IMG/VR virus record: IMGVR_UViG_3300020056_000210
Coordinates: 1-20,512 of that record
Length of the DNA stretch: 20,512 nucleotides
Reading direction: 5' to 3' (one strand)
DNA from: a virus
The notes below the pieces were generated by a model. That model was not told the origin of the DNA, ran no database searches, and was given only the letters and a program-made list of their open reading frames with translations. A program made the position numbers and the translations under genes. Below are positions 218-6,687 of the stretch, one piece after another (position 1 is the stretch's first letter; the number at the start of each line of letters is the position of its first letter).

Positions 218-685
218 ATGGATCCTCTATCACTTATTGCTATGGCGTCTACAACCTTCAAAGGTATACAGACGCTAGTAAACAGAGGTGCTGAAATTGA
301 GGCTGTGGCTCAGAAACTGGGGCAGTGGTATTCCTTTGCTGCTGACATAAAACAAGCAGAGAAAGAAGCTGAGAGTCCCGGTGTCTTCAAGAAGTTATTC
401 GATGGAGAAACTGTAGAACAACAAGCACTCAACAGTATAATAGCCAAGAAGAAACTAGAGGAACAAGAAAAAGAAATACGAGAACTAATTGTTTGGTCTT
501 ACGGTGTTGAGACTTACCAAGAGATGATAATGCTCAGACGTAAGATTAAAGCACAGAGGGAAGAGGTAATCTACAAACAACGCAAGAGGCAACGTATGTT
601 ACTAGATAGTATTTTGTTGTCTATCGCCGCTGCTGTAACAGCCGGGATCATCTACGGTACAGTAGCAATTATTAAGGGTGCATGA
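218..685 (+). CDS. coiled-coil protein with C-terminal membrane helix, unknown function
   Basis: 155 residues ending in TGA. The N-terminus (about 1-48) is a mildly hydrophobic helical region. Residues 70-125 are highly charged (K/E/Q/R-rich) and look like a coiled coil. Residues 128-152 form one strong transmembrane helix followed by a short tail. There is no signal peptide. It resembles uncharacterised membrane proteins of marine podoviruses that lie next to holin genes, but I cannot assign a reaction. The ATG at 218 is preferred over the ATG at 214, which is in another frame and gives only a short ORF. The tail-anchored layout and the two holin-like genes directly after it suggest a lysis or envelope role. 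A spanin is less likely, because inner-membrane spanins normally carry the helix at the N-terminus. Confidence 0.75.
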   Translation: MDPLSLIAMASTTFKGIQTLVNRGAEIEAVAQKLGQWYSFAADIKQAEKEAESPGVFKKLFDGETVEQQALNSIIAKKKLEEQEKEIRELIVWSYGVETYQEMIMLRRKIKAQREEVIYKQRKRQRMLLDSILLSIAAAVTAGIIYGTVAIIKGA

Positions 686-861: not shown

Positions 862-1239
862 GTGTGGCAAGCGCTCATTAGTCCTATTGCTGGACTCGCT
901 AAGACTTGGCTGAGTAATCGCCACGAGCAGTCGCAAGCAAAACACCAAGCCACAATGCAGGTTATACAGAACACTGCTACGTGGGAACAACACATGGCAC
1001 AGGCTAGTGCGTCCTCGTGGAAAGACGAGTGGTTCACAGTAGTCCTGAGTGCGCCTGTAATAGCAATTATGTGGGGCGTAGGTATGAACGATCTTGATAT
1101 CATTGGTCGCGTAGGTATGGCCTTTGCAGAGCTAGACAGGTTACCTGAGTGGTATCAATATCTTTTGTACGTTGCAGTCACAGCCAGCTTTGGCATACGT
1201 GGTGCTGACAAGCTGATGCAGCTAAAGGGTGGTAAATAA
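862..1239 (+). CDS. phage holin, 3TM / gene-transfer-agent type
   Basis: 125 residues, GTG start. The N-terminal 20 residues are hydrophobic and amphipathic (ISPIAGLAKTWL) and are followed by a polar, His/Gln-rich stretch (20-50). Then comes the motif SSWKDEWFT at about 51-59, which is characteristic of the holin family related to gene-transfer-agent holins (GTA_holin_3TM). Membrane segments follow at about 58-74 and 97-113, and the tail is basic (KLMQLKGGK). The expected role is to open the inner membrane at the end of infection. No endolysin is visible in the window, so the cell-wall enzyme must be encoded elsewhere. The TAG before it and the AGGAG site at 847-851 set the start. Confidence 0.75.
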   Translation: MWQALISPIAGLAKTWLSNRHEQSQAKHQATMQVIQNTATWEQHMAQASASSWKDEWFTVVLSAPVIAIMWGVGMNDLDIIGRVGMAFAELDRLPEWYQYLLYVAVTASFGIRGADKLMQLKGGK

Positions 1240-1242
1240 GCT

Positions 1243-4200
1243 ATGGCTAACGGGACTACTTATGTACCGCCTACATCCGGTGAAGTTTTTTCAGAGTTAG
1301 GCGAAGGCGGCAAGTGTAAAAACGAGAGCCACATTCCTGTTTTTATTGATGGTAAAAAAGTAGGCTGCGGCAGTGCTTCTTTTTTTAAAGATTACTACGT
1401 TGCTGGTGCGGGTGTAGATAGTGTTCCTTTTATACAAGGAACTGCGGATCAAATTTACTCTATGCTTTACGGTGAGTTGCCTGATGGTGAGTACTATGAA
1501 ACTGGAGACTTAAACGGAGACGGCGTTAACGAAGTTTATAGTTATACTTTTGATGACATAGGATTAAAAGTTAATCAAACTGTTTACGGCTACGATAACG
1601 ATGGTAATGTTACTCAAACACCTTATGACGAGTGGAGCGCCCCAGACCTCACTGAGTTAATTGAGAAGTACGGTGAAGACGTTGTTAATGACCTCAAGGG
1701 TAAGTACGATGAGCTTGTAGACTTCATCGGAAACATACCAGAAGATCCTCTTGGATCTCTAAAAAAGATGGCAGAGATTTTTATAGAGGGTGCTACAGGG
1801 ATACCTCCTGAGTGTCAAAAAGTAAGCGGAGGTCCTCTAGACGAGTGGTATAAAAATTGTGTTACTGTCGGTATTCTTATTGAAATTGGTATTCCCGGCC
1901 TTCCTAGCGGTATAGGGGGCATATTTAAAGGGGCCACTATAGGAGAAATAGAAGAAGCTCTAAAAAAGATTGGCAAAAAGTTTGAAGATATTGTAAACGG
2001 TACTCCTACCTGTGGAGAAGACGGTAAACAAGAGTGTACTCCAGAAAACATACTAGGAGATTTAGCACGAGAAGTAATAGACAGTATTGGTAGCATTTTT
2101 GAAGATGCAGAAGGTAATATAACTGTTGAAAGCGTTCTTGGAAAACTAGGCGGTATTTTTGGTAGCGTTCTTGGCGGCATAATATACGATCAATTTAAAG
2201 ACTTAATTAACGAAGAAATTGAAAATGTCATAGGCATACCTGTTATACCGTTTGCTCCTTTGCAAGAGTGCGAAGACAAAGGTTTAGTAACTATAGAAGA
2301 CCCCGCTGGATCTGGGAATTTTAAATGTGGTACAAAATGTAAACAAGAGGGCTTTACTCCTACAGGGCCACAAGGAGAGTGTGTTGATCCTAATGCTGTT
2401 GACGCTTTTGACGAAACTAAGTGCGTAGAAGAAACTTACTTTAACGAGAATAAAGCTGATTGTGAAGCCGCTGGTTACGTAAACTGCGAGGGCGGTGAAA
2501 ATTCACAAGCACAAGAAACAACAGGCGGTATAATCAAAGGAACACTTGATGACTGTAATGTAATACAAGATCCACAGTGTATAGGAGATGGTAGTTGGGA
2601 TGGGGAAAAATGTGTATGTCCTGATGGAACCGATAAGGCAGGAGAAGAAGAGCCTTTAGATGGAGATTGTTCTGATGAAGAAGATCCTACAGAAGACACA
2701 GAAAACGAGTGTACCAAACAAGGAAAAGTTTTACACAAAGGCGATTGTTACGACGTAAACGATATGTGTTTCGCTGATCCGGGTGAAGGGTGTATGGTAG
2801 GTAGCATTCAACCAGACGGGTCGTGTAAGTGTGATCCGTACGAGTCTTGTCCTGCGGGGTCTGAAGTAGAAACGCCACAGTACAACGCAAACGACGTTAC
2901 TAAAAGCGGATCTTTTACTTTAGACGGCAAGGAATACACGTACGAGCCTTGTAATCCTTCTCTTGCTCCTGTAGAAGTTGTAGCTCCTGAACAAACCTGT
3001 GACAACAACGCAGTAAACTACCCTGATTGTAACCAGTGTGAAAACGGAGAACACCCAGACGCACACGTAGACAGCGACTGTAGCAAACCGCCAAAAGAAA
3101 CCGGGACAAACCCCGGAGACGCTTGTGATTTAGGAAACAACGAAGTTGGCGTTGTTGATAAAAACGGTGACTGTAAGCGTGTAGGTCAAAACTGTAGGCG
3201 TAGTAAGTACGGGTACACTTCTAGTGATAACTGTGACACTGGATTGGGTTTTAATACGTCCTCTGGAATTATAGACTCTAGCGGAGACTGCGTGTGTAAC
3301 ACCGTGTGTGATGATCCAAACAGAAGGGTACACTCCACTACCGGTGCTTGCAGAGATGATTGTAAATCAGGATGGAAAAAAGACGCAGAAGGAAACTGTA
3401 CAGTAGAAATCACTGATTTTGAGTGTGATAACGGAGCAACTAAAGAATCTGATTGTAACGAGTGTCCTAAAGGACAAAAATTTGGAACTTTTTATCCTAA
3501 GCGGTGTATCCCAACGCAAGAATGTATCGCAGAAGACGCGTACACAGATCCAACAAAGGCAGAAGAGTGTGGTAAAGTAGCGTGTCCACCAGACAGTGAA
3601 AAGCCTTACGCAGACTCTCTGGATCAGTGTGTAGAAGTTGTTACAGAAGAACCCTGTGAGCAAATAAACCCAGCTACAGGACAGCCATCTCCGAAAGACG
3701 ATCAAGGAAACTGTTACGATTGTACTGATGAAGCAAACGCGCTGGTCTGTGGTTGGGCTGAGTGTCCTGACGGAATAAGCATGGCTCCTACATTAGAGGA
3801 CTGTGGAGGCACAGTTCCACCAGAAACCTGTAGCGACCCTAACGCTGTTAATGATGGACAAGAGGGGCCTTGTGAGTGTAAGCCCGGATTTAGTAAAGAC
3901 CCAGAAACACTGCTTTGTGTAAGAGGTGTTGAATCTTGTGACAACGGCGCTACAGTAGAAAGCGGATGCGACATCTGTCCAGACGGTAGTAATGTTCTTG
4001 AGCACGAAGACGGAATGTGCCCTAGTGAGCCGCCGCAAGAGTGCACTAACGGAGCCACAGATTACCCAGACTGTACTGTGTGTCCCGAAGGTCAGTCAAT
4101 GGACTCAGAAGGTAACTGTACTGACTGTTCAGACTGTAGCTGTGCAGAGTACGCAGCGGCTAATCCTGAGGAGTGTATTACGGAGCCTCCTGTAGAGCCT

Positions 4201-4383
4201 CCAGAAACAGGCGGTGGCGGTGGCGGCGGTGGTGGTGGCGGGGGCGGTATGTTTAATCCGTTCTTGGCTGGCATCAGTTACACACCTCAGGCTGTACCAG
4301 AGCCTCCAGCACCACCACAGAAGGACTACATGGCTGAACTAGACAACCTAATTAAACGAAGTTTGTTTGAGGGCATGGCATAA
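1243..4383 (+). CDS. giant cysteine-rich acidic protein, probable virion surface or tail-associated protein, function unknown
   Basis: 1046 residues with no signal peptide. Residues 1-335 hold only 6 cysteines. They include a calcium-loop-like DLNGDGVNEV (89-98, FG-GAP/dockerin style) and two glycine-rich hydrophobic segments (207-232 and 297-320). Residues 343-978 contain about 64 cysteines by hand count, with EGF-like CxC pairs (457/459, 528/530, 683/685, 877/879) and four copies of a C-x9-C-x2-C-x11-13-C unit. Residues 979-989 are Pro/Glu-rich, 990-1002 are 13 glycines, and the last 44 residues form a tail (MFNPFLAGISYTP to LIKRSLFEGMA). That tail resembles C-termini I recall from uncultured marine phage proteins. 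It lies between the holins and the tail neck genes, so a virion role is inferred. A receptor-binding or host-surface decoy role is possible but unproven. Confidence 0.7.
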   Translation: MANGTTYVPPTSGEVFSELGEGGKCKNESHIPVFIDGKKVGCGSASFFKDYYVAGAGVDSVPFIQGTADQIYSMLYGELPDGEYYETGDLNGDGVNEVYSYTFDDIGLKVNQTVYGYDNDGNVTQTPYDEWSAPDLTELIEKYGEDVVNDLKGKYDELVDFIGNIPEDPLGSLKKMAEIFIEGATGIPPECQKVSGGPLDEWYKNCVTVGILIEIGIPGLPSGIGGIFKGATIGEIEEALKKIGKKFEDIVNGTPTCGEDGKQECTPENILGDLAREVIDSIGSIFEDAEGNITVESVLGKLGGIFGSVLGGIIYDQFKDLINEEIENVIGIPVIPFAPLQECEDKGLVTIEDPAGSGNFKCGTKCKQEGFTPTGPQGECVDPNAVDAFDETKCVEETYFNENKADCEAAGYVNCEGGENSQAQETTGGIIKGTLDDCNVIQDPQCIGDGSWDGEKCVCPDGTDKAGEEEPLDGDCSDEEDPTEDTENECTKQGKVLHKGDCYDVNDMCFADPGEGCMVGSIQPDGSCKCDPYESCPAGSEVETPQYNANDVTKSGSFTLDGKEYTYEPCNPSLAPVEVVAPEQTCDNNAVNYPDCNQCENGEHPDAHVDSDCSKPPKETGTNPGDACDLGNNEVGVVDKNGDCKRVGQNCRRSKYGYTSSDNCDTGLGFNTSSGIIDSSGDCVCNTVCDDPNRRVHSTTGACRDDCKSGWKKDAEGNCTVEITDFECDNGATKESDCNECPKGQKFGTFYPKRCIPTQECIAEDAYTDPTKAEECGKVACPPDSEKPYADSLDQCVEVVTEEPCEQINPATGQPSPKDDQGNCYDCTDEANALVCGWAECPDGISMAPTLEDCGGTVPPETCSDPNAVNDGQEGPCECKPGFSKDPETLLCVRGVESCDNGATVESGCDICPDGSNVLEHEDGMCPSEPPQECTNGATDYPDCTVCPEGQSMDSEGNCTDCSDCSCAEYAAANPEECITEPPVEPPETGGGGGGGGGGGGGMFNPFLAGISYTPQAVPEPPAPPQKDYMAELDNLIKRSLFEGMA
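2998..4119 (+). repeat. four-copy cysteine repeat in the large Cys-rich protein
   Basis: Residues 586-613, 728-755, 899-926 and 934-959 share the spacing C-x9-C-x2-C-x13-C (x11 in the last copy). They begin CDNNA, CDNGA, CDNGA and CTNGA, and a Gly follows the third Cys by three residues. The units are interspersed with other Cys-rich sequence rather than strictly tandem. This is a protein-level repeat; the DNA copies have diverged. Confidence 0.7.
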
Positions 4384-4384
4384 G

Positions 4385-5032
4385 ATGACATATTTAAACT
4401 TAGTAAACAACGTTCTCAGACGCTTGCGTGAAGACGAGGTGTCTAGTGTACAGGACACTACTTACAGCAAACTTGTGGGTGATTTTGTAAACGATGCCAA
4501 GAAAATGGTAGAAGACGCTTGGGATTGGTCAGCACTCAGGACTACCCTGACGGTTACAACGTCTGCTGGTACTTTTAACTATGTACTCACGGGGTCACAG
4601 AACAGGATCAAGGTACTAGACGTGCTTAACGATAGTTCCAACTTGTTTATGACTTACCAGACAGCACATTGGTTTAACGATGCTTACCTTAACCAGAGTC
4701 CCGTGTCAGGCATCCCTGAGTACTACACGTACAACGGTGTTGACTCTAACGGAGATACGCAGGTTGACCTGTACCCTAAACCGGATGACACGTACAGCAT
4801 CAGGTTCAACTGTATCCTGCGTTCTGATGACCTGAGCGCAGACGAAGACGATCTTACGATCCCTGCTCAACCCGTGATTCACCTTGCAGTAGCTCTGTTA
4901 GCTCGTGAGCGTGGCGAGACAGGCGGTACATCAGCACCTGAGTACTTTGGTATTGCTGATAAGTATTTGTCTGACGCGATTGCTCTGGACGCACAGAAGC
5001 ACCCTGAAGAAACTATCTGGTACACTCCGTAG
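4385..5032 (+). CDS. head-tail adaptor protein (SU10/P22 gp4-like neck protein)
   Basis: 215 residues. It opens with a helical MTYLNLVNNVLRRLRED segment, followed by KLVGDFVNDAKKMVEDAW and WSALRTTLTV (about 30-58). Next is a beta-rich middle with DVLNDSSNLFMTY and PEYYTYN, and then a C-terminal helix-rich part (VIHLAVALLARERGE). This N-terminal helix pattern and length fit the phage SU10-type adaptor family, functionally like P22 gp4, which sits under the portal and joins it to the tail nozzle. The start at 4385 lies just after the previous TAA (4381-4383) and is preferred over upstream ATGs that overlap the Cys-rich gene. The TAG stop is 11 bases before the nozzle-like gene, which fits an adaptor-nozzle pair. 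T7 gp11 would be the alternative comparison. Confidence 0.72.
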   Translation: MTYLNLVNNVLRRLREDEVSSVQDTTYSKLVGDFVNDAKKMVEDAWDWSALRTTLTVTTSAGTFNYVLTGSQNRIKVLDVLNDSSNLFMTYQTAHWFNDAYLNQSPVSGIPEYYTYNGVDSNGDTQVDLYPKPDDTYSIRFNCILRSDDLSADEDDLTIPAQPVIHLAVALLARERGETGGTSAPEYFGIADKYLSDAIALDAQKHPEETIWYTP

Positions 5033-5043
5033 GAGCCTAGAGT

Positions 5044-6687
5044 ATGGCACAGCCTCTCCAAAGCATTAATTTAGTTGCTCCGGGTTTCAAGGGAGTCAAC
5101 ACAGAAGACTCTCCGATTGGACAGGACTTCTCTTTTGCTGACGTTGCTGACAACGCTGTAATTGACAAGCGTGGGCGTATTGCTGCACGTAAGGGTGTAG
5201 ACTTGTTGACTGCTGTAAACACACCTCTTGGTTCTGATTACGCTGTCAAGATTCACCACTTTTACGATGACGCTGGTAACGAAGAAGTGTTCGTCACAGG
5301 CAACAACAAGATATTTAAGACTACACAGACTACTAATCCTGATGACACGCTTACTGACATTACTCCGGGTTCGTACACGATTACAGCAGACAACTGGAAG
5401 ATAGTCAACTTTAACGACAAGGCTTACTTCTTCCAGCGTGGACAGGAGCCGCTTGTGTACGATAACACAAATGGACTCAGGACGTTTACCACAGCTACAG
5501 GTACGTCTACTAACAGTAACTTCTATTGTCACGAGGCTCTAGCAGCGTACGGTAGGCTGTGGATCGTAGACAACGCAGCAGACACCCAAACAATATACTG
5601 GTCTGATCTGTTAATAGGCACAGACTTTACTGGCGGTTCCAGTGGTTCTATAGATGTATCTAAGGCTTGGCCTGATGGGTACGACGAAGTAAGGGCTTTG
5701 GTAGCCCACAACAACGCTCTACTTATTTTAGGCAAGCACAGCATTCTTGTATACAATAACGCCTTTAGTCCAGCAACGATGGCTCTGGCTGACACTGTAG
5801 CTGGCGTTGGGTGCATCTGTAGAAACTCTGTACAACACATTGGTACTGATGTGTTGTTTATGTCTCAGAACGGTCTGAGGAGCTTTGGCAGAACAATACA
5901 AGAAAAGTCTTTACCTCTGTCTGACTTAAGCGCAAACATAAAGACTGAGCTTATTAGTTTGATTAGCACACGTACTGCTCCTACGGCATCTGTGTACAGC
6001 CCTGAGAACTCGTTCTATCTGATTACGTTTCCAGATACTAACACAACGTACTGCTTTGATCTCAAAGGTAGACTAGAGAACGGTGCGTACAGAGCCACAC
6101 GTTGGACCTCTGCGCCGTTCAAGTCGTACGAGAGAAAGAACGATGGTACGTTACTGGTAGGAACTGATGATGGCGTGGGTGAGTACGCTGGGTACGCAGA
6201 TGAGTACAACGACTCAGGAACAATCAAGACTTCTAGTTACCGCTTCAGGTACTACAGCCCCGGATTAACTTTTGGTGATCCGTCGAAGGTTAAGTTCCTA
6301 AAGAAGCTACGTCCTACGTTGGTAGGTGCTAACAGTGCCACCGTGTTTGTTAAGTGGGCGTACGACTTTGGAACATCGTACAGCACACAGGAGTTTACGG
6401 TAGGTAATCAGACCCCTTACTACTTTTCTAATCCAACAGACGGTGCAGGAAATCCTATCGCTGCTGGAGGATTGGCTGAGTTTTCTAATCCTGTGGACGG
6501 AGACGGTAATCCTATTGCTACCGGAGGACTAGCTGAGTTCACCGGAGGAGCAACAACAACCAGACCTCCTGTAAATGCCACAGGTGGCGGTTCTATTATT
6601 ACTATTGGTCTTGAGTCAGAAATAAACGGTTTTGCTTTATCTCTCCAAGAAATCAACGTATTAGCACTTATGGGTAAAACATTATGA
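5044..6687 (+). CDS. tail nozzle / stabilization protein (P22 gp10 or SU10 nozzle-like)
   Basis: 547 residues, mostly beta structure. The N-terminus (LVAPGFKGVNTEDSP, then ADNAVIDKRGRIAARKG) and the centre (WSDLLIGTDFTGGSSGS at 186-202, RALVAHNNALLILGKHSILVYN at 217-238, LFMSQNGLRSFGR at 271-283) follow the plan of podovirus stabilization or nozzle proteins. These form the lower neck of the tail. The C-terminal region carries a perfect-length tandem duplication (residues 461-498). TAGGAG just upstream gives 8-base spacing to ATG 5044. Its stop overlaps the next start as ATGA, so translation is probably coupled. Order (adaptor, nozzle, small fibre-like protein, ejection proteins) supports the call. 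T7 gp12 is the functional equivalent in T7-like phages. Confidence 0.75.
   Translation: MAQPLQSINLVAPGFKGVNTEDSPIGQDFSFADVADNAVIDKRGRIAARKGVDLLTAVNTPLGSDYAVKIHHFYDDAGNEEVFVTGNNKIFKTTQTTNPDDTLTDITPGSYTITADNWKIVNFNDKAYFFQRGQEPLVYDNTNGLRTFTTATGTSTNSNFYCHEALAAYGRLWIVDNAADTQTIYWSDLLIGTDFTGGSSGSIDVSKAWPDGYDEVRALVAHNNALLILGKHSILVYNNAFSPATMALADTVAGVGCICRNSVQHIGTDVLFMSQNGLRSFGRTIQEKSLPLSDLSANIKTELISLISTRTAPTASVYSPENSFYLITFPDTNTTYCFDLKGRLENGAYRATRWTSAPFKSYERKNDGTLLVGTDDGVGEYAGYADEYNDSGTIKTSSYRFRYYSPGLTFGDPSKVKFLKKLRPTLVGANSATVFVKWAYDFGTSYSTQEFTVGNQTPYYFSNPTDGAGNPIAAGGLAEFSNPVDGDGNPIATGGLAEFTGGATTTRPPVNATGGGSIITIGLESEINGFALSLQEINVLALMGKTL
6424..6537 (+). repeat. 57-bp in-frame tandem duplication in the nozzle gene
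   Basis: Two adjacent 57-base units (6424-6480 and 6481-6537) encode 19-residue copies that differ at three positions: FSNPTDGAGNPIAAGGLAE and FSNPVDGDGNPIATGGLAE. A fragment of a third unit (FTGG) follows. Many third-codon positions differ between copies, so the duplication is not brand new. Confidence 0.9.

Follow-up and report, generated by a model that had tools for sequence, protein, structure and literature searches.

A hypervariable protein with even cysteine counts between holin-like and neck genes of a tailed-phage lineage, a candidate disulfide-hardened virion stalk

Why would a tailed phage encode a protein with 70 cysteines among its structural genes? The question is raised by an open reading frame in a 20,512-base virus record (IMG/VR record IMGVR_UViG_3300020056_000210), the whole of which is called the window here. 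The frame, X (1243..4383, + strand), runs uninterrupted from ATG to stop and translates into 1046 residues, 6.7% of which are cysteine; a second contig, L001, carries an identical frame. Six cysteines lie before residue 343 (at 25, 42, 191, 206, 257 and 265) and 64 at residues 343–978, and a sequence-only reading that had counted about 70 by hand, divided in the same way, proved exact on recount. The other proteins of the structural block in the window contain 0, 0, 1, 4, 0, 0, 0, 0 and 0 cysteines (range 0–4), which excludes chance as the source of the cysteine richness of X.

The gene order around X was established from profile matches and open reading frames. Upstream are a 155-residue protein with a C-terminal hydrophobic segment (218..685, +) and a 125-residue holin-like DUF3154/phrog_2524 protein (862..1239, +; matched to phrog_2524, with the DUF3154 annotation found in a relative). 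Downstream are an SU10-type head–tail adaptor (4385..5032, +; PF24175, E = 8.7e-15), which served as the anchor gene of the analysis, a tail nozzle-like or structural protein (5044..6687, +; phrog_5107 and phrog_3287), a 77-residue protein and four cysteine-free proteins, after which replication genes follow on the opposite strand. X starts 4 bases past the end of the 125-residue gene and stops 2 bases ahead of the adaptor ATG. This arrangement, with small membrane-type proteins on one side and adaptor and nozzle-like proteins on the other, matches the earlier placement of X between holins and neck genes. The nozzle-like protein contains an internal near-repeat (window:6430-6620, FSNPTDGAGNPIAAGGLAEFSNPVDGDGNPIATGGLAEF) and is 547 residues long, compared with 505–521 in some relatives. 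The 77-residue gene (window:6684-6917, MSNYTKTTNFANKDSLPSGDAGKIIRGTEF...GTIDGGTY) resembles the N-terminal part of longer proteins of 458 residues in G001 and 632 residues in G002, and looks like a detached fibre N-terminus.

Loci for comparison were fetched from IMG/VR contigs through the conserved adaptor gene, X being taken as the frame that ends at the adaptor start. The comparative set comprised 95 distinct full-length X proteins, all in the same position. The N-terminus is variable in every member. The middle is either cysteine-rich or of low complexity (DG, TPAE or DTT repeats) with few or no cysteines, and most members combine a glycine-rich segment with a short motif at the C-terminus, of the form MF.PF.AGISY...DYMAELDNIIKRSLFEG or GDPQLLSRTEFPITDFLAGLF. 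In the X of the window, an iterated profile search within the family delimited a small N-terminal domain, N1 (residues 60–131; 1420..1635, +), which is common to 16 other X proteins, cysteine-poor ones included, and contains DLNGDGVNEVYS, a sequence that may form an EF-hand- or dockerin-like loop. A within-family profile search also delimited a conserved core module, H (residues 138–322; 1654..2208, +), common to 46 X proteins, cysteine-rich and cysteine-free alike. H holds 2, 4 or 6 cysteines in members of the cysteine type and has glycine-rich hydrophobic stretches, with a maximum Kyte–Doolittle value of 1.64 at residue 206.

The cysteine-rich region itself (residues 343–978, 64 cysteines; 2269..4176, +) is very acidic, with 135 D/E against 41 K/R. 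It includes four four-cysteine repeats, all on the + strand: CDNNAVNYPDCNQC...C (2998..3081), CDNGATKESDCNECPKG...C (3424..3507), CDNGATVESGCDICPDG...C (3937..4020) and CTNGATDYPDCTVCPEG...C (4042..4119). A run of 13 glycines, a likely flexible linker (4210..4248, +), leads into the C-terminal motif MFNPFLAGISYTPQ...KDYMAELDNLIKRSLFEGMA (4249..4380, +), a proposed anchor that is conserved in kind in cysteine-rich and cysteine-free members. Relatives keep the core module and/or the C-terminal motif while the cysteine region is replaced by acidic, T/P-rich or collagen-like repeats; the distant relative L287 has collagen-like GPX repeats in its place.

The number of cysteines is even in every X protein that has any. 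These make up 63 of the 95 full-length proteins, with counts from 2 to 84, and 50 of the 63 have at least 18. The rule was first seen on the initial sets; 19 of the 63 were fetched later and are out of sample, and all 19 are even. The X of L099 / G002, which is split over a terminal repeat and is additional to the 63, also gives an even total (33+40-3=70). Redundancy does not explain the parity. Depending on the identity cut-off, the cysteine-containing proteins fall into 8–56 clusters, and at 80, 50 and 30% identity they form 51, 28 and 8 groups, within which the cysteine count changed at least 4, 21 and 24 times, respectively, every step being even. With in-cluster changes included, a coin-flip calculation, as distinct from a full phylogenetic model, gave p of about 2e-10 at the 30% cut-off. 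Parity also held for each module separately (before H, H and after H) in 28/28 proteins. By comparison, X copies truncated at the 5' end by a contig end were odd in 7/24 cases, and nine other cysteine-bearing genes of the same viruses (nozzle, capsid, portal, RNR, exonuclease, polymerase, primase, VRR nuclease and GP88) were odd in 64/231 frames; the control pool leaves out the adaptor and the 125-residue protein, which mostly have 0–1 cysteines.

X thus shows the pattern of a disulfide-bonded extracellular protein, in which an even number of cysteines is kept through change. Even counts in all 63 proteins indicate that its cysteines are paired in disulfides, and we hold it highly probable from these counts that X is a disulfide-paired protein, as anticipated in the earlier suggestion that the cysteines become oxidised. 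The parity of each module points to local pairing within modules, able to form unaided. Among the proteins of the virus the even bias is limited to X, which argues for an oxidising place other than the cytoplasm, and it is likely that X acts outside it. No signal-like hydrophobic stretch was found by hydropathy at the N-terminus of the window X, in agreement with the earlier claim that it lacks a signal peptide, nor in any of the 95 full-length proteins by a simple hydropathy scan for the N-terminal signal of Sec or Tat secretion. Given an N-terminus of this kind, oxidation after lysis would be the simplest route.

Metal binding was the other use that had been proposed for the cysteines. Coordination of zinc or iron would make X a metal-loaded adhesin or a metal scavenger; the window X does have eleven CxC/CxxC motifs, and its very acidic region could supply Ca2+ sites. 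In the discovery set, however, the counts were 2 modulo 4 in 26 proteins and 0 modulo 4 in 15, a mixture that indicates cysteines in pairs rather than metal-binding tetrads and led us to reject zinc-binding Cys4 sites. Histidines total only 194 against 2406 cysteines, and the commonest cysteine spacings are 11–12 residues. We therefore consider metal binding by the cysteines very improbable, although acidic, EF-hand-like Ca2+ loops may exist.

Searches for known families placed X in none. There was no significant match in Pfam or PHROGs, no match among 50,697 phage records (INPHARED) and so no homologue in an isolated phage, and only glycine-linker artefacts in a profile search of the PDB; across these four resources no known fibre domain or homology was found, and Pfam gave no lytic enzyme domain. 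Homologues of the cysteine region were also absent from the cellular genome contigs searched. An earlier idea, that X mimics an EGF-like surface protein, was not upheld as homology: at the curated cut-off, the EGF family (Pfam cEGF and relatives) was not detected in the window X, and a cEGF match of E = 0.009 appeared in one of 50 X proteins scanned. AlphaFold2 models of residues 576–1046 and 1–345 were both poor (mean pLDDT 51.7 and 53.5), and Foldseek returned nothing at E <= 0.001 for either. The best match of the cysteine part was megalin/LRP2 (E = 1.2e-3, TMq <= 0.13, on the model with pLDDT 51.7), and other weak top matches on the same poor model were LDLR and Pfs25, both with TMq < 0.14, and ApoER2. 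These are strings of small disulfide domains, and the models suggest at most that X has the composition and spacing of that class. In the literature we found no account of such a protein, and none of a structural-locus protein that needs dozens of disulfides in any tailed phage infecting mesophilic bacteria. X is a real finding without a known family, as the earlier suggestion of an undescribed protein had it.

Judged by replication genes, pelagiphages and roseophages are the closest isolates, with 48% identity in DNA polymerase; for the capsid and portal proteins of one relative, identity to the isolates listed is no more than about 22–32%. These values point to a lineage that is uncultured and probably marine, in which near-complete relatives measure ~34–39 kb. 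L099 / G002 (35,873 bases) has a 127-base direct terminal repeat, with the X gene split over the ends, and the repeat suggests that it is a complete genome. Host assignment via genome bins was abandoned, as the taxa were inconsistent (Sphingobacteriales, Rhodospirillaceae, Kapaibacterium and Planctomycetaceae). Related phage contigs (L282–L287) occur in bins of unrelated phyla, and X is cysteine-poor or absent there. In L286, a deeper relative with an adaptor 50% identical, there is no X at that place, which indicates that the virion plan does not depend on X. Related genomes encode a Peptidase_M15_3 endolysin and a Peptidase_S74 receptor fibre, each as its own gene; we accordingly rejected both the endolysin and the main receptor fibre as roles for X.

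Compared with its neighbours, X is hypervariable. Between L016 and the window the 125-residue gene is 100%, the adaptor 87% and X 8% identical over the length of X; for L020 the corresponding values are 100%, 86% and 17%. In marine phages, many of the variable genes of this sort that can be identified serve host recognition (PMC3909814), but internal virion proteins and terminases may vary as well (PMC3861242). The downstream internal-protein genes of the window are likewise rather divergent from those of relatives, and variability by itself is therefore no proof that X is exposed.

Where, then, would X be found after lysis? Its gene adjoins a holin-like gene, and X could be made late beside the lysis genes and released rather than carried on the particle, as a disulfide-stable extracellular factor such as a decoy or a binder of debris or receptors, which oxidising seawater would reach. 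We regard this as unlikely: the gene directly abuts those for adaptor and nozzle, the C-terminal peptide is conserved and docking-like in cysteine-rich and cysteine-free proteins, and one relative has a collagen-like spacer of the sort typical of virion fibres. It is also improbable that X travels inside the virion, leaves together with the DNA at ejection and becomes oxidised in the periplasm of the newly infected cell, there helping to form a conduit or blocking superinfection. Cysteine-free proteins of internal-virion type are among its downstream operon neighbours, the H module has glycine-rich hydrophobic stretches, and some members have weak PHROG matches to tape measure or internal virion families. 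Those matches may be compositional, however, 64 reduced cysteines would have to last inside the capsid, and hypervariability together with the swapping of stalk-type spacers fits an exposed part better.

A further proposal concerns how X would be kept reduced. A glutaredoxin of 77–79 residues (PF00462, E = 8e-10, WCPAC) is encoded ahead of the terminase gene in two relatives with a cysteine-rich X (L116:5633-5863, + and L118:12231-12470, -), and no glutaredoxin match was obtained in the cysteine-free relatives G004, G005 and G006. A small signal-peptide-like protein adjoins the glutaredoxin in both L116 and L118. X was cysteine-rich in 9/10 glutaredoxin-bearing contigs with a readable X and in 0/5 contigs that have the neighbouring endolysin gene without glutaredoxin (Fisher p = 0.002 between the two groups); 11 further contigs without the glutaredoxin region are uninformative on the association. 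The enzyme might thus serve X specifically, holding it in the reduced state or rearranging its disulfides. We think this doubtful. G013 is one exception, the window is a fragment without the glutaredoxin region, and other marine phages have glutaredoxin too, its presence there being explained by redox state and ribonucleotide reductase (PMC6918029). The association is also confounded by shared ancestry, and it stays a lead.

That X is an external virion stalk or adhesin, surface-exposed, disulfide-hardened and modular, is a proposition to which we give an even chance, and among the three roles proposed earlier the disulfide-hardened stalk is the best-fitting. X would be a modular, surface-exposed virion component, docked to the particle by its conserved C-terminal peptide, probably near the neck or tail, with the glycine-rich linker next to this dock. 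A stalk of small disulfide-stapled mini-domains would hold the core module and the variable N-terminal domain outward. Synthesis in the cytoplasm would leave the cysteines reduced, and they would pair inside each local module after lysis, once the particle is in oxygenated water. Stalk and N-terminal parts would be swapped by recombination, as expected of a host-facing part. We infer all four of the virion location, the oxidation after lysis, the C-terminal anchor and the stalk or adhesin role. Tail fibres are mostly anchored by the N-terminus, and a C-terminal anchor is unusual, which counts against the stalk model. More tentatively still, this may be a tailed-phage lineage with an external appendage of tens of disulfide-stapled modules (up to 42 disulfides per chain), which could not form in the host and would self-assemble by oxidation only after lysis, its modules exchanged like a host-recognition cassette, perhaps with a phage glutaredoxin in control of redox. 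Should X belong to the virion, these particles would mature partly through chemistry outside the cell, and the surface they turn to the host would be diversified much as the extracellular proteins of animals are. Even-cysteine parity is also an inexpensive test, needing nothing but sequence, for virion components whose folding is completed extracellularly.

X can be set beside several known systems. Of 50 X proteins scanned, a single one has the DUF4214 domain (PF13946), and the X of the window lacks it. With tail fibres that bear a Peptidase_S74 chaperone or collagen-like repeats X has stalk-like spacers and modular exchange in common, whereas these genomes encode the Peptidase_S74 fibre separately and X has no chaperone domain. 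Strings of EGF-like, LDLR-A or TNFR-type domains are similar in their short cysteine spacings, acidity, four-cysteine repeats and CxCxPGF-like pieces, although X has no significant profile or fold match to them, the models being poor. The metaviromic islands of marine phages (Mizuno et al. 2014, PMC3909814) resemble the X locus in that a highly variable gene is flanked by conserved structural ones; there the identifiable genes are fibres, lectin-like and C1q-like, and cysteine is absent from the main text of that account. In thermophilic archaea, whose viruses also have disulfides, an even-cysteine bias has likewise been taken as evidence of disulfide bonding (PMC3177088). There the cytoplasm is oxidising and the bias extends to many proteins, whereas here the other proteins of the virus lack it, which suggests that X alone is built for an oxidising place.
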